NCBI RefSeq assembly: GCF_015679265.1
Contig: NZ_CP064942.1
Span: 3,700,001-3,764,000, forward strand
Origin: Pontivivens ytuae
GTDB lineage: Bacteria > Pseudomonadota > Alphaproteobacteria > Rhodobacterales > Rhodobacteraceae
Reading direction: 5' to 3'
Length of the DNA: 64,000 bases
A model generated the notes under the pieces. That model made no database searches, was not told the origin of the DNA, and saw only the letters and a list, made by a program, of their open reading frames with translations. How positions within the stretch are numbered: the first letter of the stretch is position 1; each line of letters begins with the position of its first letter. Below, in pieces: positions 5,075 to 55,567 of the stretch. The translations under genes and the position numbers were made by a program.

Positions 5075-7543
5075 TCACTCCCCGCGCGGCACCAGCTCCG
5101 TCACGCCGATCGCATCGGCGCGGGCGCGGTCTTCGCTCAGGCTCATCGGGATGTAGTCGCCGCGCCGCCACAGCACCGACAGATCATCGTAGTGCCGGGA
5201 CAGGAGGTGCCCCGACTGGCCCGTGGAGATGATGTAGCGCGAGCTCTCCGGATCACCGAAATCGACCACCATGCGCAGGCCCGAGGCGTGGACATTCGCG
5301 AACGGGTTCGGCCCGTCGCCCGCCGTCAGCCCGCGCATCAGCGTATTGTCCCCGCCGGAGGTCGGCTGGATGATCGAGGCGATCAGCGAGAGGCCCGGTA
5401 CGCGGCTCAGCACCTCGTGCTCCTGCATCGCCAGATGCGCGTCGCCCCAGCGCCAGCCCTCGACCCGGCTGCCATAGCGCTCCCGCAAGTCCAGGAGCGC
5501 ATCGTCGAGCGACAGGCGCGCCATCTCCAGGCAGGTCTCCACCGGCGCCGATGTCCGTACGTCGCACCAGACGCCCGCGCCGTCGATGTCGCGGAACACC
5601 CGCTCGATGAAGAGCGGCTCCAGCCGGGTGATGCGCTCGGCCATCGGTCCGCCAAGCTCGTCACGGATCAGGCGGTGTTGCAGGTGGCGCATCCAGGCGG
5701 CATAGATCAGCCCCTCGGGCCCGTGCTCGCTCATCTCCCCGTTCCAGTCGGCGAGGCGGTCGAGGGCGACGTTGCGGATGGGGGAGAGGGCATCCTCCGA
5801 CACCGGGTTGCCGGTCCAGAACAGGTCCCGCGCCACGAGGGACAGCAGGATGCGCGCGGTCTGGCTCACCGTGTCGGTCTGCGCCTCGATGAAGCTGTCG
5901 ACGGTGTGGAACTCCCGCTCGGCCAGCAGGCGGCGGGCGCGCTGGATCCGCTGCGTGTCGCCCCAGTCGTGGCTGACATGGTAGGGGAAGTCGCGCACCG
6001 TGACCCGGTTGTTGGTGTTGAGCACGAGGCCGGAGCGGGGATTGTATGTCCCCGGCATCTCCTCGAACGGGACGAGGCCGAGCCAGTCGTTTTCCTCCAC
6101 CCAGCCGGGCACGGGGATCCGGCCCTCACCCTGGTGGGTCTCACGGCGCAGGGGCGCACGGCCGCCGACCTGGATCGCCACCTGCTCCCGGTCAGCCATG
6201 GTGAAGTTCTGGCTGGGCGCGATGAGCCCTTCGAGCGCGCGCCGCCCCTCCTCGACGGAGCGGGCGAAAGGCATCTCGATCAGGCTGTCCATCGAGCGGT
6301 CCGTGGGGTCGAGCGCGGTCCATGCCAGCGCCGCCACATGGCCCGGCGGCGTGATCGCAGCCACGCCGTAGCGGTGCGGCGGGATCACCGGGCCGTGCCG
6401 GGTCCAGCGCAGCGTGACGGTCCGCGCAGGCTCATCTCCCACCCCGATCAGGATGTCGCGCGTGCGGAAGGGCTGCGAGCCATCGGGCGTCAGGTACCGG
6501 TCGGGATCGGCGGGATCGATCCGCTCGATATAGATGTCCTGATCATCCGTTCCCGTGGTCGTCAGCCCCCACGCGAAGTCGTCATTGCGCCCGATGATGA
6601 CGCCCGGCAGCCCCGGGATCGTGCCACCGATCACACCGCCTTGCGGGAACTCCAGCCGCGCCAGCATCCAGATCGAAGGGGCGGACAGCCCCAGATGCGG
6701 GTCCGAGGCCATGAGCGTCGCTCCGGAGGCCGAGCGCGAGCCGTCCACCGCCCAGGCGTTCGAAGCCCCGGCAAAGCCCAAGGGCGCCACCGGGTCCAGC
6801 GGATGGCGCGGCATCTCGGGCAGCGCGGCGAAGTCCATCTCGGGGAACAGCTCCGCAAATTCCGGGCTGCCACCCATCATCGCCACCTCCGGCGCGTCGG
6901 GCATCAGGTCGCGCAGCCGCTCGGGCTGCAGCAGCAGCGAAAGCTCCGCCCGCCGCACCTCCAGCCCTGCGTGACCGGTGAGCTGCAACGCCATGATGCG
7001 GTTCACGGCAATCGAATCCGTCGGGGTCCAGGGTGCTATCGCGCGGGAAAAGATGAAGAATTCCGGCGAGCCGCGCCCCAGCGCCTCGACCTGCACTTCC
7101 GCGAGCCGCGCGTTCACCCCGTCCGCATAGGCGCGCATCGCGGCCTGCGTGCGCTCCGACTGGTTGGGCACCATGGCGCGCGCGACGCCGTAGATGTCGA
7201 GCGCGCGCAACAGGTGGTCGATCTCGAACGTCGCCTCGCCGAAAAGCTCGCTCAGCCGCCCCTGCGCGGTGCGCCGCAGGATGGTCATCTGCCACAGGCG
7301 GTCCTGCGCGTGGGCGTAGCCGAGGCCGAAATAGACGTCCTCCTCCGTCTCGCCGAAGATGTGGGGGACGGCGTGGCGGTCGCGCACGATTTCCACCGGT
7401 GCGGTGATCCCCTCGACCTCCACCCGGCTCTCGTAATCGGGCAGCGATCCGCTGGCGAGATACCAGGCGAGCACCAGCAGACCCGCGGCGAGCAGGCCGA
7501 GGCCCAGCACGATCCGAACCAGCCATCTGAACAGCGTGACCAC
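5075..7543 (-). CDS. Penicillin acylase family protein (Ntn-hydrolase)
   Basis: 822-residue precursor of an N-terminal-nucleophile amidase that hydrolyses acyl-amide bonds such as beta-lactam side chains or acyl-homoserine lactones; the substrate cannot be told from sequence. Residues 7-30 form an uncleaved-type membrane anchor or signal. The alpha subunit region follows, with the typical EIVRDRHAVPHI and FGLGYAHAQDRLWQM motifs. The autocleavage site and catalytic Ser are S261 in GASNAWAVDG, then the large beta subunit. Length fits the family. It is flanked by a convergent small gene and a divergent dehydrogenase, so it probably has its own promoter in 7544-7655. Confidence 0.9.
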   Translation of the reverse strand: MVTLFRWLVRIVLGLGLLAAGLLVLAWYLASGSLPDYESRVEVEGITAPVEIVRDRHAVPHIFGETEEDVYFGLGYAHAQDRLWQMTILRRTAQGRLSELFGEATFEIDHLLRALDIYGVARAMVPNQSERTQAAMRAYADGVNARLAEVQVEALGRGSPEFFIFSRAIAPWTPTDSIAVNRIMALQLTGHAGLEVRRAELSLLLQPERLRDLMPDAPEVAMMGGSPEFAELFPEMDFAALPEMPRHPLDPVAPLGFAGASNAWAVDGSRSASGATLMASDPHLGLSAPSIWMLARLEFPQGGVIGGTIPGLPGVIIGRNDDFAWGLTTTGTDDQDIYIERIDPADPDRYLTPDGSQPFRTRDILIGVGDEPARTVTLRWTRHGPVIPPHRYGVAAITPPGHVAALAWTALDPTDRSMDSLIEMPFARSVEEGRRALEGLIAPSQNFTMADREQVAIQVGGRAPLRRETHQGEGRIPVPGWVEENDWLGLVPFEEMPGTYNPRSGLVLNTNNRVTVRDFPYHVSHDWGDTQRIQRARRLLAEREFHTVDSFIEAQTDTVSQTARILLSLVARDLFWTGNPVSEDALSPIRNVALDRLADWNGEMSEHGPEGLIYAAWMRHLQHRLIRDELGGPMAERITRLEPLFIERVFRDIDGAGVWCDVRTSAPVETCLEMARLSLDDALLDLRERYGSRVEGWRWGDAHLAMQEHEVLSRVPGLSLIASIIQPTSGGDNTLMRGLTAGDGPNPFANVHASGLRMVVDFGDPESSRYIISTGQSGHLLSRHYDDLSVLWRRGDYIPMSLSEDRARADAIGVTELVPRGE

Positions 7544-7655
7544 GCCGGCATCCTCTCATCGGTTTCCGGGATTTCCCAAGCACTACCAGTGCGCTTGACA
7601 GGGTGCAATCGGCCCCCGACGCTGCGCGCGATCAAAGCATAGGGAGGACGCCGAC

Positions 7656-8534
7656 ATGGCGAAATGCGCATTCATCGGGCTGGGCGTGATGGGCTATCCC
7701 ATGGCCGGGCACCTCGCGGCGAAGGGCCACGAGGTCACGGTCTACAACCGCACCGCCGCGAAGGCCGAGGCGTGGGCCAAGGAGCATGGCGGCACGGCTG
7801 CTCCGACGCCTGCCGCGGCCGCGGACGGCGCCGAGTTCGTGTTCGCTTGCGTGGGCAACGACGACGACCTGCGCTCGGTCACGACCGGGCAGGACGGCGC
7901 GTTCGCCGCGGTCGGCACGGACGCCGTCTTCGTCGATCACACCACCGCCTCCGCCGATGTGGCGCGGGAGCTTGCCGCCGCCGCCGGCGAACACGGCTTC
8001 CACTTCATCGACGCGCCGGTCAGCGGCGGGCAGGCGGGGGCCGAGAACGGCGTGCTCACCGTGATGTGCGGCGGCGGGCAGGCGGCCTACGACCGCGCGG
8101 AGCCGGTGATCGCCGCCTTCGCGAAGTCCTGCCGCCTGATGGGTGACAGCGGGGCCGGTCAGATCACCAAGATGGTCAACCAGATCTGCATCGCGGGGCT
8201 GGTGCAGGCGCTCAGCGAGGGGCTGAACTTCGCGCAGAAGGCCGGGCTCGACGGCCACGCGGTCGTTGACGTGATCTCCAAGGGTGCGGCGGGCTCCTGG
8301 CAGATGGAGAACCGCGGGCCGACCATGCTCGACGACAAGTTCGACTTCGGCTTCGCCGTCGACTGGATGCGCAAGGATCTGGGCATTGTGCTGGACGAAG
8401 CGCGCAATATCGGTGCCTCCGTCCCCATAACCGCCACAGTCGATCAGTTCTATCAGGACGTGCAGAACATGGGGGGTGGCAGATGGGACACATCAAGTCT
8501 CATTCGGCGCCTGCGCAGGCTCGACGGCGAATAA
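7656..8534 (+). CDS. NAD(P)-dependent beta-hydroxyacid dehydrogenase (3-hydroxyisobutyrate dehydrogenase family)
   Basis: 292-residue cytosolic oxidoreductase of the 3-hydroxyisobutyrate/tartronate-semialdehyde/GLYR family. It has the Rossmann motif GLGVMGYPMAGH at 8-19, the substrate-binding DAPVSGGQAGAENG at 119-132, and the catalytic lysine K172 in GQITKMVNQ. A mmsB-type valine-degradation role is possible, but no mmsA or acyl-CoA dehydrogenase gene is nearby, so I leave the substrate open. Start ATG follows GGGAGGACGCCGAC. Confidence 0.88.
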   Translation: MAKCAFIGLGVMGYPMAGHLAAKGHEVTVYNRTAAKAEAWAKEHGGTAAPTPAAAADGAEFVFACVGNDDDLRSVTTGQDGAFAAVGTDAVFVDHTTASADVARELAAAAGEHGFHFIDAPVSGGQAGAENGVLTVMCGGGQAAYDRAEPVIAAFAKSCRLMGDSGAGQITKMVNQICIAGLVQALSEGLNFAQKAGLDGHAVVDVISKGAAGSWQMENRGPTMLDDKFDFGFAVDWMRKDLGIVLDEARNIGASVPITATVDQFYQDVQNMGGGRWDTSSLIRRLRRLDGE

Positions 8535-44860: not shown

Positions 44861-45184
44861 TCAATGATACCGCTGGCCCACCTGCAGCACGGTGCCGTCG
44901 GCGCGGGTGATCTCGTGGGCGTAGAGCTCCAGCACCAGTTCGTCGTCGACATAGCCATGCACCGTCACGGGCTCGCCGAGCTCCACCGGCGGCGTGCTCG
45001 AACTGAAATAGACGGGAATGTTGCCGGTCTCGTCGGCGAGGATGAACTCGTCGTCGTCCATCACCTTGTCGACCGTGCCCGAGATGGTGACCATCGTGCC
45101 GCGCTGGATCTCCGCGATCGTGATGATCTGGGCGAGGGCGGGGGAGGCGAACAGGATCGCCAACAGGGCCAGCGCGGCACGCAT
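44861..45184 (-). CDS. Exported OB-fold (BOF/NirD-YgiW-like) protein, copy 1
   Basis: 107 residues with signal peptide MRAALALLAILFASPALA and AGGAG before the ATG. The mature protein is one small beta-domain: ITIAEIQRGTMVTISGTVDK, DDDEFILADETGNIPVYFSS, VTVHGYVDDELVLELYAHEI. This is the BOF pattern of periplasmic stress proteins. It is a tandem paralogue of the gene at 45342. Confidence 0.82.
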   Translation of the reverse strand: MRAALALLAILFASPALAQIITIAEIQRGTMVTISGTVDKVMDDDEFILADETGNIPVYFSSSTPPVELGEPVTVHGYVDDELVLELYAHEITRADGTVLQVGQRYH

Positions 45185-45341: not shown

Positions 45342-45665
45342 TTATTCGTAGCGGCGGTCGAGCGTGACCACGGTGCCGTCGGCGCGGGTGATCTCGCGCG
45401 CATAGATCTCCTTGAACACGTCGTTGTCCACGAAGCCGCTGACGGTGACCATCTCGCCCACATCCGCCGGCACCCAGTTGGGACCGACATAGACGCGGAT
45501 GTTGCCGGTCTCGTCGCTCAGGCGGAACTCGTCCTCGTCGAGGAGACGTTCGACGACGCCGCTCACGGTCGTCATGCTCCCGCGCTCCACGTCGGCGATG
45601 GGGGTGATGTTGGCAAAGGCGGGCGCGGCCGCGACGAGGCCGGCAAGGACGAGGGCAAGACGCAT
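45342..45665 (-). CDS. Exported OB-fold (BOF/NirD-YgiW-like) protein, copy 2
   Basis: 107 residues, exactly the length of copy 1. Signal peptide MRLALVLAGLVAAAPAFA; mature NITPIADVERGSMTTVSGVV, DEDEFRLSDETGNIRVYVG, VTVSGFVDNDVFKEIYAREI, ITRADGTVVTLDRRYE. It shares the ADETGNI/SDETGNI and HEITRADGTV/REITRADGTV blocks with copy 1. Upstream base context TTAGGAG is also shared. Ligand unknown. Confidence 0.82.
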   Translation of the reverse strand: MRLALVLAGLVAAAPAFANITPIADVERGSMTTVSGVVERLLDEDEFRLSDETGNIRVYVGPNWVPADVGEMVTVSGFVDNDVFKEIYAREITRADGTVVTLDRRYE

Positions 45666-45877
45666 GGAGGGACTCCTAACAATCTGATTTCGCGAAACGA
45701 TTACCTGTGCGACGCACCCTGATGACGTGGTGGCCGATCGGGCGCCTCGCAAGACCCCGAAAAATGAACGGCAGATGAACGTGGCCCGGTCGCGCGGAGG
45801 GCTCCGCCCCCCGGCGCGCCTTGTATCGCCGCGCGCGCATCGGTAGACGGAACCGAGCCGCGACAAGGGAGAAGCGC

Positions 45878-46822
45878 ATGAGGGCATTCGTGTTTCCGGG
45901 CCAGGGCGCCCAGACCGTGGGCATGGGCAAGGCGCTGGCCGACGCCTATCCGGCAGCACAGGCGGTCTTCGACGAGGTGGACGAGGCCCTGGGCGAGAAG
46001 CTCTCCGCCCTCATCTGGGACGGCCCGATCGAGGACCTGACGCTCACCGCGAACGCGCAGCCCGCGCTGATGGCGACGTCCATCGCGGCGATGCGCGCGC
46101 TGGAGGCCGAGGGCGTCGCGATCACCGATGCGGAGTTCGTGGCGGGCCACTCGCTGGGCGAGTACTCGGCACTCTGCGCCGCGGGGGCGTTGAGCCTGTC
46201 CGACACCGCGCGGTTGCTGCGCACGCGGGGCGAGGCGATGCAATCCGCCGTCCCGGTGGGCGTCGGCGCGATGGCGGCCCTGCTGGGTCTCGATTTCGAG
46301 ACGGCGCAGGCCGTTGCCAAGGAAGCGGCCGAGGGCGAGGTCTGCCAGGCCGCCAACGACAACGATCCGACGCAGGTCGTCGTCTCCGGCCACAAGGGCG
46401 CCGTCGAGCGGGCCGTCGAGATCGCGAAGGAGAAGGGCGCGAAGCGTGCCGTGATGCTCCCCGTTTCCGCCCCTTTCCACTGCGCGCTGATGCAACCCGC
46501 GGCCGATGCGATGGCCGAGGCGCTCAGCCATGTCGACATCGAGCCGCCCGAGGTGAAGGTCGTGGCCAACGTGATCGCCCGCTGCGAGACCCAGCCGCAC
46601 CAGATCCGCTCGCTGCTGGTCGACCAGGTCACGGGCTCGGTCCGCTGGCGCGAGAGCGTGGAATACATGGCGAAGGAGGGCGTGACGGAGGTCTACGAGG
46701 TCGGCGCGGGCAAGGCGCTGTCGGGCATGATCCGGCGCATCGAGCGCTCCATCGCCTGCACGCCCGTCGGCACGCCGGAGGAGGCCGTGGCCGCCGCACA
46801 GAAGATCAAGGGAGAGGCATGA
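45878..46822 (+). CDS. fabD: Malonyl-CoA-ACP transacylase FabD
   Basis: 314 residues. FPGQGAQ near the N-terminus, the catalytic Ser is S92 in GHSLGEYSALCA, and the catalytic His is in VSAPFHCALM. It loads malonyl groups on AcpP for fatty acid elongation. The ATG at 45878 (MRAFVFPGQG) follows AAGGGAGAAGC. The stop overlaps the fabG start (ATGA). Confidence 0.97.
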   Translation: MRAFVFPGQGAQTVGMGKALADAYPAAQAVFDEVDEALGEKLSALIWDGPIEDLTLTANAQPALMATSIAAMRALEAEGVAITDAEFVAGHSLGEYSALCAAGALSLSDTARLLRTRGEAMQSAVPVGVGAMAALLGLDFETAQAVAKEAAEGEVCQAANDNDPTQVVVSGHKGAVERAVEIAKEKGAKRAVMLPVSAPFHCALMQPAADAMAEALSHVDIEPPEVKVVANVIARCETQPHQIRSLLVDQVTGSVRWRESVEYMAKEGVTEVYEVGAGKALSGMIRRIERSIACTPVGTPEEAVAAAQKIKGEA

Positions 46823-48795: not shown

Positions 48796-48896
48796 GGTGA
48801 TGACCGTTCCGCGATGCTCGCATGCGGGCCCGCCCTTGCCGCCCCCCGCCGGGTGCCGCTATATGCCGTGCCAAGAAACGATGCGAGGAGAGCAGT

Positions 48897-50150
48897 ATGC
48901 GGCGTGTGGTTGTGACCGGGCTGGGGATGGTGTCTCCGCTCGCCTCCGGCGTGGAGGAAACGTGGGCGCGCATCCTCGATGGCCGGTCCGGGGCCGGGCC
49001 GATCACGCGGTTCGATGCGGAGCATCTCGCGACCCGCATCGCCTGCGAAGTGCCGCGCGGCGACGGCTCGGACGGGACCTTCAACCCCGATGACTGGCTG
49101 GAGGTGAAGGAACAGCGCAAGATCGACGACTTCATCATCTACTCCATCGCGGCCGCCGAGATGGCGTGCAGGGACGCCGACTGGCTGCCCGAGAAGGAGG
49201 AGGACCGGATCCGGACCGGGGTGATGATCGGCTCCGGCATCGGGGGCATCGACTCGATCCAGCAGACCTCCTACGTGCTGCGGGACAAGGGACCGCGCCG
49301 GGTGTCGCCCTTCTTCATTCCGGGCTCGCTGATCAACCTGACCTCGGGCCAGGTCTCGATCCGGTTCGGGTTCAAGGGGCCGAACCACTCGATCGTGACG
49401 GCCTGTTCGACAGGGGCGCATGCCATTGGCGATGCGGGCCGTCTCATCGCGCTCGGCGATGCGGAGGTGATGGTCGCGGGCGGGGCGGAGAGTGCCATCT
49501 GCGAGCTCGGCATCGTCGGCTTCAACGCGTGCAAGGCGCTCTCGACGCGCAACGACGAGCCTGAGAAAGCCTCGCGCCCCTACGATGCGGAGCGCGACGG
49601 CTTCGTGATGGGCGAAGGCGCGGGCGTCGTGGTGCTGGAGGAGTACGAGCACGCCAAGGCGCGCGGTGCGAAGATCTATGCCGAGCTGGTGGGCTATGGC
49701 CTGTCGGGCGATGCCTACCACATCACCGCGCCCTCCGAGGATGGCGACGGGGCCTTCCGCTCGATGAGTGCCGCGCTGAAGCGGGCGGGGCTGGAGCCCG
49801 GTGACGTGGATTACATCAACGCGCACGGCACCTCGACCATGGCCGACACGATCGAGCTGGGCGCCGTGGAGCGGTTGATGGGCAACGCGGCGGGGAAGGC
49901 GACGATGTCGTCGACCAAATCCTCCGTCGGGCACCTGCTGGGGGCTGCGGGGGCGGTGGAGGCGATCTTCTCCATCCTCGCGATCCGCGATCAGGTGGCC
50001 CCGCCGACGATCAACCTCGACAACCCGGCGGTGGAGACGCCGCTGGACCTCGCGCCGAACGCGAAGCGGGAGCGGGAGATCAACGTGGCCCTCTCCAACA
50101 GCTTCGGCTTCGGCGGCACCAATGCTTCGGTGATCTTCCAGAAGGTCTGA
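48897..50150 (+). CDS. fabF: Beta-ketoacyl-ACP synthase II FabF
   Basis: 417-residue condensing enzyme of fatty acid elongation. Catalytic Cys is C170 in TACSTGAHAIG; the two His are in NAHGTSTMADT and SSVGHLLGAAG. ATG at 48897 (MRRVVVTGLG) follows AGGAGAGC. mltG starts three bases after the stop, so the two are one operon. Confidence 0.97.
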   Translation: MRRVVVTGLGMVSPLASGVEETWARILDGRSGAGPITRFDAEHLATRIACEVPRGDGSDGTFNPDDWLEVKEQRKIDDFIIYSIAAAEMACRDADWLPEKEEDRIRTGVMIGSGIGGIDSIQQTSYVLRDKGPRRVSPFFIPGSLINLTSGQVSIRFGFKGPNHSIVTACSTGAHAIGDAGRLIALGDAEVMVAGGAESAICELGIVGFNACKALSTRNDEPEKASRPYDAERDGFVMGEGAGVVVLEEYEHAKARGAKIYAELVGYGLSGDAYHITAPSEDGDGAFRSMSAALKRAGLEPGDVDYINAHGTSTMADTIELGAVERLMGNAAGKATMSSTKSSVGHLLGAAGAVEAIFSILAIRDQVAPPTINLDNPAVETPLDLAPNAKREREINVALSNSFGFGGTNASVIFQKV

Positions 50151-50153
50151 TCC

Positions 50154-51143
50154 ATGCGCTCGATCCTTTCCAACCTGCTCACGCTGATGATCGTGGGGCT
50201 CTGCATTCTGGCCGGGGCCGTGTTCTGGGGCCAACGGGAGTTCACGCAACCCGGACCGCTGACGCAGGCGACCGTCATCACGGTGGAACGGGGCGCGACG
50301 CTGAACGGGGTCGCGCGGGTGCTGGAGGACGCCGGGGCGATCTCCAACACCGACGTGTTCCGGCTGGGCGCGCGGTATACGGAGACGGATCGCGGTCTGC
50401 GCTTCGGCGAGTACGAGATCCCGGCGGGTGCCTCGATGGAGGAGATCCTGGAGCTGCTGAACTCCGGCCGTTCGATCCTCTACCAGGTCACGATCCCCGA
50501 GGGCTGGACGAGTTGGCAGGCGGTGCAGCGGATCAACGAGAACGAGCTCCTGGTCGGTGAGATCACGGAGATGCCGCCGGAGGGCTCGCTCGCGCCCAAC
50601 ACCTACTCGATCGAGCGGGGGATGGAGCGGCAGGCGCTGGTCGACCTGATGATGGAGGCGCAGGCCGAGATCGTGGCCGAGGCGTGGGAGAACCGGGCCG
50701 AGGGTCTGCCGCTGGAAAGCCCCGAGGAGCTCCTGATCCTCGCCTCCATCGTGGAGAAGGAAACCGGCGTTTCGGCGGAGCGGGAGCAGGTGGCGAGCGT
50801 CTTCGTCAACCGGATCAACCGCGGCATGCGGCTGCAGACGGACCCGACGGTGATCTACGGCATCACGCTGGGCGAGGGGACGCTGGGGCGCGGGCTGCGG
50901 CGTAGCGAGCTCGATGCCGAGACGCCCTACAACACCTATGTGATTCCCGGGCTGCCTCCGACGCCGATCGCGAATCCGGGCCGTGCCTCCATCGAGGCGA
51001 CGGCGAACCCGGCGGAGACCGACTACTTCTTCTTCGTCGCGGACGGGACAGGCGGGCACGCATTTTCCGTGACTTATGAAGAGCATAACCGCAATGTGGC
51101 GCGCTGGCGGGCCATCGAGCGGCAGCGGTCGGAGAGCCAGTAG
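50154..51143 (+). CDS. mltG: Endolytic transglycosylase MltG
   Basis: 329 residues: one membrane segment at about 7-27, a LysM-like part (about 40-105), and the YceG catalytic domain. The catalytic Glu is E201 in ILASIVEKETG, followed by VASVFVNRINRGMRLQTDP, TVIYGITLG and the YNTYVIPGLPPTPIANPG signature. It cleaves nascent glycan strands at the inner membrane. It borders the GTA remnant. Confidence 0.96.
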   Translation: MRSILSNLLTLMIVGLCILAGAVFWGQREFTQPGPLTQATVITVERGATLNGVARVLEDAGAISNTDVFRLGARYTETDRGLRFGEYEIPAGASMEEILELLNSGRSILYQVTIPEGWTSWQAVQRINENELLVGEITEMPPEGSLAPNTYSIERGMERQALVDLMMEAQAEIVAEAWENRAEGLPLESPEELLILASIVEKETGVSAEREQVASVFVNRINRGMRLQTDPTVIYGITLGEGTLGRGLRRSELDAETPYNTYVIPGLPPTPIANPGRASIEATANPAETDYFFFVADGTGGHAFSVTYEEHNRNVARWRAIERQRSESQ

Positions 51144-51273: not shown

Positions 51274-51615
51274 ATGTCTGACGATACCGACGCCGCACGG
51301 GTGAGGCTCGCCGCGCGCGCCGAAGCCGCGCGCGTTCTGTACGACAGCCTGACGCGGGCCCTGACCGGGCGCATCCAGTTCCTCGAAGGCGGAACGGTGG
51401 ACAGCGCCCAGGCCAAGGATGTCGCGTCCGAGCTGACCCAGCACCGCAAGGCGCTGCTCGCCCTGATCGAAAACGAGGTGAAACTCGATGGAAGCCCAGC
51501 AGACGGCGCAGCAGCGCCTCTCGATCTCGATGCCGCACGGGATGAACTTCGTGCGCGAATTCTTAAGCTCCGCAACCGACGCGGAGATCGAGGAGCTGCT
51601 GGCGGGGCTCAGTGA
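51274..51615 (+). CDS. Small protein at GTA gene 1 position (terminase small-subunit-like)
   Basis: 113 residues from MSDDTDAAR. Highly helical: RLAARAEAARVLYDSLTRAL, VDSAQAKDVASELTQHRKAL, DLDAARDELRARILKLRNRR. Immediately upstream of a terminase large-subunit frame and after mltG, this is where RcGTA-type clusters encode g1, shown in Rhodobacter capsulatus to be the small terminase. The assignment rests on position and helical character. The preceding leader (51144-51273) has the usual short gap. Confidence 0.65.
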   Translation: MSDDTDAARVRLAARAEAARVLYDSLTRALTGRIQFLEGGTVDSAQAKDVASELTQHRKALLALIENEVKLDGSPADGAAAPLDLDAARDELRARILKLRNRRGDRGAAGGAQ

Positions 51616-53950
51616 CAACGCGGTGCGTTCGCTGAGCTACCTGTTCGAGCTCTGGGCGCTGGAGGGACATCAGCTCGCCCCAGAAGGCGACTGGTCGACC
51701 TGGGTCTGCATGGGCGGCCGCGGCGCGGGCAAGACGCGGGCGGGCTCCGAATGGATCCGCACGCTAGTCGAGGGGGCGACGCCCGAGGCCGAGGGCGCGT
51801 ACCGGCGCATCGCGCTGGTGGGCGAGACCTACGATCAGGCGCGCGACGTCATGGTGCTGGGCGAGAGCGGGATCATCGCGTGCTCGCCGCCGGACCGGAA
51901 GCCCAAGTGGATCTCCTCGCGCCGGACGCTGGTCTGGCCGAACGGGGCGGAGGCGCAGGTGTTCTCGGCCTCCGACCCGCAGGCGCTGCGCGGGCCGCAG
52001 TTTGACGCGGCCTGGTGCGACGAGTTCGGCTGCCCGGCCATCGACAAGGGGACGAACCAGCCGAACGTGTTCCTCGACGAGAAGTCGAGCGAGAATGCGC
52101 TACCCCATTTCTCGACCGGGGCGCGGGATGATTTCATCCAGTATCGCTATCTCGATGCCGTCCTGAGCTACTGGGCCGATGACGGGCGCAATCCGATTTC
52201 CGAGATCTATGACGGGCCGATGCTGCGGCTGGATCGCTGCCATGTCTGGGCCTGGGACACGCGGCCGTGGCCGGAATCTCCGAACCGGCTGAGCCTGTGG
52301 TCGGATGGGGTGAATTACGGGCGGGGGCACTGGATCTCCGGCCGGTTGGAGATGGCGACGCTCGCCGATGTCACCGAGGAGGTCTGCGCGCGCTCCGGCG
52401 TGACGGAGGTCGACGTGTCAGGCCTGCATGGCGGAGTCGGGGGCATGGAGATGCGGGATGGGCAGTCGGCCCGCTCGGGGCTTCAGCCGCTGATGCTGGC
52501 TTTCGGGTTCGACGCGGTGGAGCGGGACGGAGAGCTCGTCTTCATTACGCGCACAGGGCATGAGACGGCGGATCTGCGGTCGGCGGATCTCGCGCTGGTC
52601 GACGAGGAGGGCGCCGGGCCGGTGCTGAGCCGCGGGGCCGAGGGCGAGCAGCCCGACCGCGTGCGCCTGCGCTACATCCAGATGGACCACGATTACCAGC
52701 GCGGGGCGGCCGAGGCGCTCGACAGTTTCGCGCCGCCGATGCGGGCCGAGACCTCCGAGGTGCCGCTGGCGCTCCATACCGGGCAGGCACAGGGCATCGC
52801 GGAGCGGCTCCTCGACGAGGGCCGGATCGCGCGGGACGGGGCGAAGCTGTCGCTGCCGCCCTCGCAGATCGGGCTGGAGCCGGGGGACGTGGTGCGGCTC
52901 GATGCTGGGCTCTTCCGCCTCGATCGGATCGAGGAGGCGGGGGCAAGGGGGCTGGAGGCGACGCGGGTCGACCCGGCGGTCTACGTGCCGGCCTACCATC
53001 CGGGGCACCTGTTCGACGGGCCTGGACCGCATGAGATCGGGCCGGTGCTGTTCGAGCTGATGGACCTGCCCTTGCTCAACGGCGACGAGGTGGAGCATGC
53101 GCCTTACCTTGCCGCGACGTCGGAGCCGTGGCCGGGGGCTGCGGCGGTCTACATCTCGTCGAGTTCCAGCGGGTTCGAGCTGGCGGCTCAGGTGACGCGG
53201 CCTGCGGTGATGGGCACGCTGGTCACGCCGCTCGCGGCTGCTCCTGCGGCGCGGTGGAGTGCGGGCTGCGAGATCGAGCTCGTCACCGGCGAGCTGGAGG
53301 CGCGGTCGGGTGCGGATGTGCTCGACGGAGCCAATGCGGCGGCGCTGCGCAACGGGGCGGGGGACTGGGAGGTGATCCAGTTCCGCGACGCGACGCTGGT
53401 CGGGCCGGATCGCTGGCGGATTGGCGGGCTGCTGCGCGGGCAGGCGGGGACGGAGTTCGTGATCCCGCCGAATTGGGAGGTGGGCACGCGCTTCGTCCTG
53501 CTCGACGACGCGGCGGAGCAGATCGACCTGCCGCTGTCTGCGCGCGGGCTGGAGCGTCAGCTTCGCGTCGGTCCCGCCTCGCGTCCCGTCGATGATGAGA
53601 GCTATGCCGCGGTGACGGAGGTCTTCGAGGGTGTGGGCCTGCGACCCTACGCGCCGGTGCATCTGCGGGCGCGCCGGACGGGGGGCGACCTGGAGGTGCG
53701 CTGGATCCGGCGGACCCGGGTCGACGGCGACCTCTGGACGGCGGGCGACGTGCCCCTCTCCGAAGAGCGGGAGGCGTATCTCCTGGAGCTCGTGAAGGAC
53801 GGCGCGGTGGTGCTGTCGCGTGAGGTCGTCGCGCCCTTGACCGTACTCGCAGCGGCGGATCTGCCGTCCGCTCCCTTCGACATCACCGTTTCCCAGATCT
53901 CGGCCCGGTTCGGGCCTGGAGCCCAGCAAAGGATGACCTGGAATGACTGA
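51488..53950 (+). CDS. Chimeric frame: GTA large terminase N-terminus fused to GTA gp15 C-terminus
   Basis: 820 codons without a stop. Residues about 20-179 are a TerL ATPase domain: SDNAVRSLSYLFELWALEGH, Walker A GGRGAGKTRAG at 76-86, SLRGPQFDAAWCDE-type Walker B at 167-179 (here ALRGPQFDAAWCDE). From residue 180 the sequence becomes GTA gp15 (Rcc01698-type): FGCPAIDKGTNQPNVFLDEK, HVWAWDTRPWPESP, GHWISGRLE, then the phage-tail and C-terminal parts to the end. In intact clusters these two parts lie in separate genes over 10 kb apart. The TerL nuclease domain and the first half of gp15 are missing. GAGGTG precedes the ATG; it overlaps gene 1 by 128 bases, and ATGs at codons 15 and 19 are alternatives. 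Confidence 0.88.
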   Translation: MEAQQTAQQRLSISMPHGMNFVREFLSSATDAEIEELLAGLSDNAVRSLSYLFELWALEGHQLAPEGDWSTWVCMGGRGAGKTRAGSEWIRTLVEGATPEAEGAYRRIALVGETYDQARDVMVLGESGIIACSPPDRKPKWISSRRTLVWPNGAEAQVFSASDPQALRGPQFDAAWCDEFGCPAIDKGTNQPNVFLDEKSSENALPHFSTGARDDFIQYRYLDAVLSYWADDGRNPISEIYDGPMLRLDRCHVWAWDTRPWPESPNRLSLWSDGVNYGRGHWISGRLEMATLADVTEEVCARSGVTEVDVSGLHGGVGGMEMRDGQSARSGLQPLMLAFGFDAVERDGELVFITRTGHETADLRSADLALVDEEGAGPVLSRGAEGEQPDRVRLRYIQMDHDYQRGAAEALDSFAPPMRAETSEVPLALHTGQAQGIAERLLDEGRIARDGAKLSLPPSQIGLEPGDVVRLDAGLFRLDRIEEAGARGLEATRVDPAVYVPAYHPGHLFDGPGPHEIGPVLFELMDLPLLNGDEVEHAPYLAATSEPWPGAAAVYISSSSSGFELAAQVTRPAVMGTLVTPLAAAPAARWSAGCEIELVTGELEARSGADVLDGANAAALRNGAGDWEVIQFRDATLVGPDRWRIGGLLRGQAGTEFVIPPNWEVGTRFVLLDDAAEQIDLPLSARGLERQLRVGPASRPVDDESYAAVTEVFEGVGLRPYAPVHLRARRTGGDLEVRWIRRTRVDGDLWTAGDVPLSEEREAYLLELVKDGAVVLSREVVAPLTVLAAADLPSAPFDITVSQISARFGPGAQQRMTWND

Positions 53951-54665
53951 GACCGCGAAACTCGGCCTGCCGCTCGTTCAGGCCGCACAGGCACAAAAGC
54001 ACGTCACGGTGAACGAGGCGCTGGCCCGGGTCGATGCGATGACCCAGCTTCGGCTCGTGACCGTTATGCGCCCGACGCCGCCGGTGGCGCCCGCGGATGG
54101 CGATTGCCACGCGGTGCCCGCCGGGGCGACCGGCGATTGGGCCGGCGAGGACGGGCGTGTCGCGGTGGCGAGCGCGGGCCTCTGGTCCTTCGTGACGCCG
54201 CAGATGGGCTGGCGCGCCTGGGATGTCGCGGGGCAGGCGGCGCTTACCCATGACGGGGTGGATTGGCGACGTGACGAGGCCGCGGTGTCAGCGGGTGGTG
54301 CCGCAACGCTGCTGCGCGTGGTCGAGGTCGATCACGTGATCGGCGCGGGCGAGGCGGTGAGCACCGTTGCGGGTATTATCCCCGGTCCGTCGCAGGTGGT
54401 GGGTGTCACCGGACGCGTGATCTCCCCCATCAGCGGGGCGGGTCTGACAGGTTGGCGGCTGGGCGTCTCCGGCTCCGACAACCGCTATGGCTCGTCGCTC
54501 GGGTTGGGGCTGAACTCCTACGCTCTCGGCTTCACCGGGCAGCCGATCACCTACTGGTCGGCGACGGACCTGATCCTGACACCGGAGGGGGGCGCGAGCT
54601 TCGACGGCGGCACGGTGCGGCTGGCGGTTCACCTAACGGAACTGTTGCCGCCCGCTGCCGTCTGA
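53943..54665 (+). CDS. DUF2793 protein (GTA-associated tail/fibre-type)
   Basis: 240 residues beginning eight bases before the end of the chimera. DUF2793 signature near the N-terminus: KLGLPLVQAAQAQKHVTVNE, DAMTQLRLV, DGDCHAVPAGATGDWAG, LWSFVTPQMGWRAWD. Such proteins are found at GTA cluster ends and as GTA tail fibres. The C-terminal half (about 130-235) is a Gly/Ser-rich beta-structure that could bind surface glycans. It seems intact despite the lost cluster. Confidence 0.8.
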   Translation: MTETAKLGLPLVQAAQAQKHVTVNEALARVDAMTQLRLVTVMRPTPPVAPADGDCHAVPAGATGDWAGEDGRVAVASAGLWSFVTPQMGWRAWDVAGQAALTHDGVDWRRDEAAVSAGGAATLLRVVEVDHVIGAGEAVSTVAGIIPGPSQVVGVTGRVISPISGAGLTGWRLGVSGSDNRYGSSLGLGLNSYALGFTGQPITYWSATDLILTPEGGASFDGGTVRLAVHLTELLPPAAV

Positions 54666-54751: not shown

Positions 54752-55567
54752 ATGGCGCAGCCATCCGTTTCTGCATCCGTCACCGGCATCGATCCGGTCT
54801 GGTCCCAGATCACCGAGGAAGCGCACAAGATGTGCGTGGACGAGCCGCGCCTGGCCGGCCTCGTCCATGCCAGCGTGCTGACGCGCCGCAACTTCGAGGA
54901 TGCGCTGTCCTACCGGCTGGGCCAGAAGCTCGCCTCCGGTGAGATGACCGAAGGGCTGGTGCGGGAGATCTTTGCCGAGGCGCATGCCGCCGATCCGAAG
55001 CTGGGTCGCGCGGCGCGGGCAGATGCGGTGGCGGTCTACGAGCGCGATCCGGCCTGCCACCGGTTGATCCAGCCGCTGATGTTCTTCAAGGGGTTCCAGG
55101 CGTTGCAGGCCTACCGCATCGCCCGGCGGCTCTGGGAGCAGGGGCGCTGCGACATGGCGTACTTCCTGCAGATGCGCACGTCCGAGGTCTTCGGCGTCGA
55201 CATCCATCCGGGTGCGCGCGTCGGGCAGGGGATCATGATCGACCACGCCCATTCTGTGGTGATCGGCGAAACGGCGGTGGTGGGCGACAACGTCTCCATG
55301 CTGCATTCGGTGACGCTGGGCGGGACCGGCAAGGAGGATGGCGACCGCCATCCCAAGATCGGCGACGGTGTGCTGATCGGGGCCGGGGCCGCGGTGCTCG
55401 GCAACATCACCGTGGGCCATTGCAGCCGGATCGCGGCGGGCTCCGTCGTGCTGGAGCCGGTGCCGCCCTGCAAGACGGTTGCCGGCGTTCCGGCGCGGAT
55501 CGTGGGCGAGGCCGGATGCGATCAGCCGGCGCAGTCGATGAACCACCTTCTGGAATACGACGCGTGA
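54752..55567 (+). CDS. cysE: Serine O-acetyltransferase CysE
   Basis: 271 residues. The alpha-helical N-terminal domain (VWSQITEEAHKMCVDEPRLAG) is followed by the left-handed beta-helix with hexapeptides IHPGARVGQGIMIDHAHSVV, IGETAVVGDNVSMLHSVTLG, IGDGVLIGAGAAVLGNITVG. It makes O-acetylserine for cysteine synthesis. AAAGGAG precedes the ATG. It stands at the 3' end of the GTA remnant, as in other Rhodobacterales GTA loci. Confidence 0.96.
   Translation: MAQPSVSASVTGIDPVWSQITEEAHKMCVDEPRLAGLVHASVLTRRNFEDALSYRLGQKLASGEMTEGLVREIFAEAHAADPKLGRAARADAVAVYERDPACHRLIQPLMFFKGFQALQAYRIARRLWEQGRCDMAYFLQMRTSEVFGVDIHPGARVGQGIMIDHAHSVVIGETAVVGDNVSMLHSVTLGGTGKEDGDRHPKIGDGVLIGAGAAVLGNITVGHCSRIAAGSVVLEPVPPCKTVAGVPARIVGEAGCDQPAQSMNHLLEYDA

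Follow-up and report, generated by a model that had tools for sequence, protein, structure and literature searches.

The window, that is the whole stretch of 64,000 nucleotides of the Pontivivens ytuae genome that was analysed, holds the remnant of a gene transfer agent (GTA) cluster. Gene transfer agents are tame, virus-like shuttles of DNA. The gene order is fabF-mltG-[g1-like ORF]-fusion-DUF2793-cysE, in which we take the first gene to be fabF and for which the gene numbers and roles of RcGTA are in part presumed (Table 1). At its centre lies a single open frame which starts with ATG and is free of stops, and which is a true fusion of the GTA large terminase (TerL), through its Walker B Asp, with the C-terminal half of gp15. 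Pfam assigns Terminase_6N to residues 74-180 (E 4.7e-16; model positions 2-105 of 215), the last third alone of GTA_TIM to residues 170-265 (model positions 204-299 of 299), Phage-tail_3 to residues 325-483 and Rcc01698_C to residues 573-670. PHROGs is concordant on this make-up, with a terminase large subunit at residues 62-181 and a tail protein at residues 147-817 that matches positions 613-1306 of 1309. A complete TerL comprising ATPase and nuclease is absent, and TerL residues 1-178 or 179 alone remain in the fusion. The joint is bridged by the tryptic peptide GPQFDAAWCDEFGCPAIDK. By tblastn, three genomes of the same genus, G001, G002 and G003, have a match to the g1-like ORF in the corresponding position (50-57% identity), as do some loci of the family, and the ORF hits zero Pfam or PHROGs families above the cut-off. 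Elsewhere in the window, on the minus strand, adjacent similar ORFs at 44861-45184 and within 45342-45959 (VERGSM/IQRGTM ... VSG/ISG ... EITRADGTV) are probably a tandem duplicate.

Table 1. Features of the collapsed GTA locus, with positions in the window.
Feature	Position	Strand	Basis and remarks
fabF-like gene, upstream flank	48885..50150	+	tblastn, conserved position in loci of the genus and the family
mltG-like gene, upstream flank	50154..51143	+	tblastn at the same place; name from the preliminary description
g1-like ORF, from its position a candidate small terminase	51274..51615	+	overlaps the start of the fusion
TerL::gp15 fusion gene	51488..53950	+	820 codons; ORF analysis, Pfam, PHROGs, same-genus comparison
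TerL part, residues 1-178	51488..52021	+	Pfam, DNA alignment, trees
Walker A GGRGAGKT of the fusion	51713-51736	+	
TGG codon of the joint	52013-52015	+	
Walker B Asp codon GAC, residue 178	52019-52021	+	read as TerL-derived
Glu codon GAG of the joint, present in both parents	52022-52024	+	DNA comparison
gp15 part, residues 180-820, opening TTC GGC TGC	52025..53947	+	Pfam, PHROGs; runs to the natural end
DUF2793 gene, downstream flank	53943..54665	+	Pfam, E 3.4e-27
cysE-like serine acetyltransferase, downstream flank	54753..55567	+	SATase_N, E 3.3e-36

The three same-genus genomes keep the two parents as separate open frames, with TerL of 489, 463 and 508 codons and gp15 of 1279, 1362 and 1280 codons in G001, G002 and G003, respectively. 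The starts of the TerL and gp15 matches lie about 11.5 kb apart in these genomes and the would-be breakpoints 11.05-11.11 kb apart, and among 61 scanned relatives a match spanning the joint was found in the window genome alone. Of the first 50 residues, 48 are identical to those of the intact protein P0002, which comes from the closest intact sibling, giving the sequence beside the joint a native look. In the window genome, which is one contig of 4,199,362 bases, a whole-genome profile search returned the fusion as the sole PF03237 terminase match, and whole-genome searches with the PF05065 capsid family and with the same-genus GTA portal gave no match. With GTA-type TerL and gp15 parts at the GTA locus and intact clusters in close kin, the locus is a remnant of the RcGTA-type cluster of Alphaproteobacteria, which it resembles in position, g1-like ORF, TerL and gp15 parts and neighbours, but of which all that separated the Walker B codon of TerL from the last third of the gp15 TIM domain has been lost. 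It is almost certainly a real collapsed cluster and not an artefact. What the preliminary description had claimed for the locus is supported in part: the domains and the DNA joint agree with TerL up to about residue 179 followed by the C-terminal half of gp15, the frame is uninterrupted for 820 codons, the joint by DNA falls inside 52013-52030, domains, flanks and same-genus comparison agree with loss of the cluster middle between mltG and cysE, and the intact cluster looked for in sister genomes is present, with TerL and gp15 about 11 kb apart.

A recurrent joint among GTA remnants

The preliminary description had regarded the fusion as a one-off product of one deletion, a claim that did not hold, since an identical joint is present in 15 of 394 family genomes and 10 of 54 Ruegeria genomes, and 172 of the 174 protein clusters listed with both parts in one frame have it too. 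The 394 family genomes represent 393 genera, and in the 15 the match across the joint is not accompanied by a second match; a repeated scan with P0102 as query returned the same 15, scoring in both scans being confined to the top two candidates of each genome. In Ruegeria, the genus of the family genome G070, all candidates were scored and none of the ten fusion genomes contains a second match. As G070 is common to both sets, the two scans give 24 fusion genomes overall. Mesorhizobium alhagi and Chelativorans multitrophicus, both Hyphomicrobiales, carry the fusion as well. The surroundings are conserved: in 14 fetched family loci cysE follows downstream in all and fabF-mltG precedes upstream in 13. 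A cognate GTA portal is found in none of the 24 genomes, two of which have distant portals (24-28% identity), and PF05065 capsid proteins occur elsewhere in eight of them, in no case beside the fusion. Several genomes (G019, G026, G440 and others) contain further relatives of gp15 at 37-41% identity elsewhere, which probably belong to GTA-like prophages.

With the fusion as query, 5.8 billion proteins were searched and yielded 3310 scored relatives, the best 120 of which comprise 113 fusions of similar length, including the window's own, and seven full-length gp15 proteins. Together with two further searches this gave a set of 332 proteins, clustered at 90% identity but with some near-duplicates (P0049 and P0052 are equal in 816 of 823 columns), in which P0001 is the window's own. 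Within this set, 173 proteins below 1000 aa fit the TerL pattern up to the W of the joint (171 with Walker A, two beginning after it); 172 of them read W-x-D-E and one, P0147, reads W-F-T-E. A single further protein with a Walker A stands outside these 173, namely P0188 (1236 aa), in which TerL runs to W-C-D and is followed by an earlier part of gp15. Hence, P0147 and P0188 are the only exceptions to the W-x-D-E-h-G joint among the 174 listed clusters that combine TerL and gp15 in one frame. Because the search ranking favours fusions, these counts are uninformative on frequency. The window fusion belongs to this recurrent class, defined by the in-frame W-x-D-E-h-G joint and by the absence of a separate TerL or gp15. 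That an assembly or database artefact lies behind the class is extremely unlikely: the window genome is one contig, and the same joint appears with different synonymous bases nearby in 24 genomes and in contigs from several sources. The same joint in 23 other genomes makes an assembly collapse at the window locus in particular very unlikely.

Other joins exist. The remaining 22 proteins below 1260 aa are pieces of gp15 or other joins and include P0178, P0263, P0267, P0290 and P0310. P0290 contains terL out of frame followed by gp15 from TELGC, and P0178 has a different N-terminal part followed by IFTELGC; a search of eight loci for a small terminase pattern that might account for this N-terminal part gave no match. 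Together with P0188, these database proteins, which come without DNA, hint that either site, in gp15 or in TerL, is joined to other partners as well, a use that is not predicted by selection on one exact protein. P0310 (654 aa, 13 members) starts at the joint with MDELGC, which would fit a broken TerL part in that lineage or a miscalled start. In P0267 (841 aa, four contigs) a PF05065 capsid domain assigned by Pfam is combined with the C-terminal part of gp15, which represents another GTA collapse with a different gp15 breakpoint. Eight further Ruegeria genomes show other damage (G421, G423, G424, G427, G446, G449, G452 and G467). In G446 the start of TerL is fused near the end of gp15, in frame for 239 codons (L246, about 7313-7996, reversed locus strand), in G449 TerL is broken about 20 residues later, and in G423 TerL residues 1-108 alone are kept. 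In the loci L029 (G006) and L156 (G223) the TerL and gp15 parts are about 1.5 kb apart, so that here, too, the GTA cluster has lost a large internal piece by another deletion.

Sequence at the joint and number of origins

The joint has the same codon register in 17 fusions from the family and the Hyphomicrobiales and in 10 from Ruegeria (G070 in both), with differing synonymous bases. The residue following the Glu is L in 34, Y in 25, I in 23, F in 18, M in 9 and V in 4 fusions and is gp15-derived, because it varies in the fusions yet is Leu in TerL of 41 of 42 intact loci. Judged by sequence, the Asp preceding the Glu is derived from TerL. Outside Ruegeria, the usage of the Glu codon itself in fusions (8 GAA, 6 GAG) is nearer to gp15 (21 and 15; p 1.0) than to TerL (9 and 33; p 0.019), and within Ruegeria the codon is non-discriminating (7 and 3 in fusions, 6 and 3 in TerL).

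What directs the break to this codon is not explained by homology alone. In 36 of the 42 intact loci (the other six did not contain the search pattern and were left out of this ranking and of the gp15 tree) the exact run shared at the joint measures 3-8 bases with a median of 4, an equally long run is found at a median of about 29,650 pairs of TerL and gp15 positions, and in one locus of 36 no in-frame match within ±25 residues is better than the joint. Short homology as the sole cause, or a deletion between direct repeats, found no support in this repeat ranking in intact kin, since the repeat at the joint is no longer than chance, and the earlier proposal that a W-x-x-E match drove the join is accordingly weak. 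Both parental sites can be written as TGG-N6-GAR. Such sites number a median of 9 between TerL and gp15 per intact stretch, and pairs more than 5 kb apart that are at least as alike as the joint pair number a median of 6, the joint pair counted, so that the motif alone fails to single out the joint pair. We know of no enzyme that would act at TGG-N6-GAR.

A single inherited origin is at odds with the trees. A single fusion clade was rejected in the tree of the gp15 part (17 fusions and 36 intact loci; AU p 2.8e-53) and in that of the TerL part (17 fusions and 42 intact loci; AU p 8.3e-94), and in both the fusions are interspersed among intact relatives. The window groups in both with its three intact same-genus relatives, with full support for gp15 and modest support (87) for TerL. 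A FastTree of 246 rows requires at least 41 changes between fusion and intact labels, 28 of which are forced by supported branches; this count is low if anything, because the rows left out, namely 46 of 240 proteins that did not fit the pattern and P0188, are mostly intact gp15 of Hyphomicrobiales. The Ruegeria tree requires at least six changes, four of them forced, and one clade is rejected there as well (AU p 8.9e-8); the fusions stand mostly as single tips. The genera of G106 and G243 are represented by one genome each, and the nearest intact kin of this pair has 61% identity. As the middle genes, once deleted, could return to a fusion by import alone, label changes are read mostly as gains. 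A single inherited origin without recombination is ruled out by the AU tests in the family and in Ruegeria, and the fusion likely arose in many separate events.

Label changes alone cannot tell many deletions from one old deletion allele, polymorphic or moved between species by homologous recombination, whose flanks were homogenised locally. Such an allele would account for one joint without a special mechanism, as a short piece across the joint is enough to delete the middle. The fusion P0044 (named R. atlantica) and the intact gp15 P0241 (named R. arenilitoris) fit this picture, with 98% identity over their common part (11 differences in about 650 residues), and GTA-minus lineages are discussed as cheaters in the available part of PMC10883770. 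However, from -30 to +60 bases around the joint, apart from the Glu codon (28 of 500 shuffles), the fusions show no greater likeness to one another than to intact loci, nor do they in any segment compared in Ruegeria, from which G423 was excluded, and the allele would have had to survive or be transferred across Rhodobacterales and Hyphomicrobiales. A slight excess lies further upstream, from -90 to -30 (2 and 21 of 500 shuffles). A clear local signal of transfer of the joint between species is thus absent from these comparisons; we keep the old allele as a rival and consider it unlikely, and a history of allele exchange is conceivable beside repeated deletion. Within Ruegeria, the first 90-180 aligned bases of terL are 96-99% identical in several species pairs, with the rest mostly at 80-94% and the pair G472-G468 at 80% in the start; overlap with g1, regulation or recombination could be causes of the high identity.

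The fusion protein and the loss of GTA production

A further possibility is that many joints form and that selection retains this one for its protein, e.g., as a tail-hub/ATPase piece that hinders phages or GTAs. Several observations point in this direction. The dN/dS ratio of the gp15 part (Nei-Gojobori) is 0.04-0.08 in most Ruegeria fusion comparisons, like the 0.05-0.11 of intact pairs, with higher values for G451 (0.09), G457 (0.14) and G448 (0.16), and many dS values above 1 are near saturation and one is undefined; the sister fusions G458-G459 give 0.055 at a dS of 1.42. As the ratio blends the time before and after the deletion, low values speak for selection or for young events. Moreover, 22 of 24 fusion genomes are free of in-frame stops, the Lys and Thr of Walker A and the Asp and Glu of Walker B are invariant in 75 aligned fusions (75 of the 173), some fusion clusters occur on many contigs (P0046 on 16, P0276 on 15, P0071 on 13 and P0274 on 11), and several non-fusion collapses in Ruegeria hold stops or mere scraps of gp15. 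Against this, selection would need a precision of one residue, with P0147 and P0188 as the only other joints in 174 clusters, the Ruegeria fusions are mostly single tips, in-frame stops are present in G339 and in G457, which also lacks part of the N-terminus, and P0310 is called without the TerL part. The AlphaFold2 model (mean pLDDT 78, pTM 0.44) is confident in the gp15 part from about residue 290 and fair in the TerL piece at 81-160, but drops to pLDDT 35-47 at residues 171-210, which include the joint, and neither the ATPase core nor the TIM barrel is complete. The idea that the exact residue is dictated by a folded alpha/beta hybrid was rejected on this model, in which the joint is of low confidence and Walker B is not built as a strand. 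Retention for the protein is possible but rather improbable; the fusion protein was probably a by-product at first, and purifying selection on it is possible. Of the earlier suggestion that the event is recent, or the chimera tolerated or used, the first part stands for P0044, whose deletion is clearly recent relative to P0241, and the second is left with a dN/dS that is unrelaxed in most Ruegeria comparisons.

The best reading, to which we give about an even chance (probability about 0.5), is a recurrent, site-biased deletion that turns GTA production off. A deletion of about 11 kb would place the Glu from the W-F-T-E strand of gp15 directly behind the Walker B Asp codon of terL and would take out the portal, the capsid and most tail genes. 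As portal and capsid genes were not found and would have been removed by the deletion, no GTA particles are expected. Two breakpoints favoured at the DNA level, both TGG-N6-GAR, may break or exchange, and the product would always be in frame because both sites are broken or exchanged at the same register. Fusion alleles may then become visible because losing a production that kills the producer pays non-producers, as the literature on cheaters suggests. A stronger form, in which the deletion is a built-in off switch of the GTA, i.e., a sequence-guided, codon-exact excision from the terL site to the gp15 site that leaves an in-frame fusion, is doubtful. Site-specific programmed deletions are found, e.g., in the excision elements of sporulating or heterocyst-forming bacteria. 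These share one exact joint that is formed repeatedly, but TerL::gp15, for which the repeats were ranked, is not known to have a recombinase, an attachment repeat or an excised circle.

Among solved structures, the closest folds to the fusion are the phage R4C baseplate (rank 1; chain 8gtc_M) and the native GTA particle (rank 3; chain 6tba_8A, 51% identity over 236 columns), both resembling its gp15 part. Damaged or lost GTA clusters are already known. In the available part of PMC10883770, pseudogenised clusters are treated as possible cheater lineages, alike to the fusion genomes in that production is lost through damage to the cluster, and that of PMC6209664 weighs the costs against the benefits of GTAs in models. 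However, no common joint is mentioned in the former part, whereas here one in-frame joint recurs, beside collapses with other joints in G446, G449, G423 and G452. Among the literature matches listed, none of the titles and abstract openings concerns a TerL::gp15 fusion, recurrent and codon-exact or otherwise.

How GTAs persist against non-producing cheaters is an open question. On fusions, annotations like "phage tail protein" and "baseplate megatron protein" mask the loss of the GTA in the host. With one recognisable joint, a non-producer allele becomes countable in genomes, metagenomes and cultures, it can be dated against intact siblings, and laboratory tests for its new formation are feasible. 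A joint that arises at a high rate by a defined mechanism would represent a new kind of switch; if the fusion is selected, it would be a new domesticated protein built from two virus genes.
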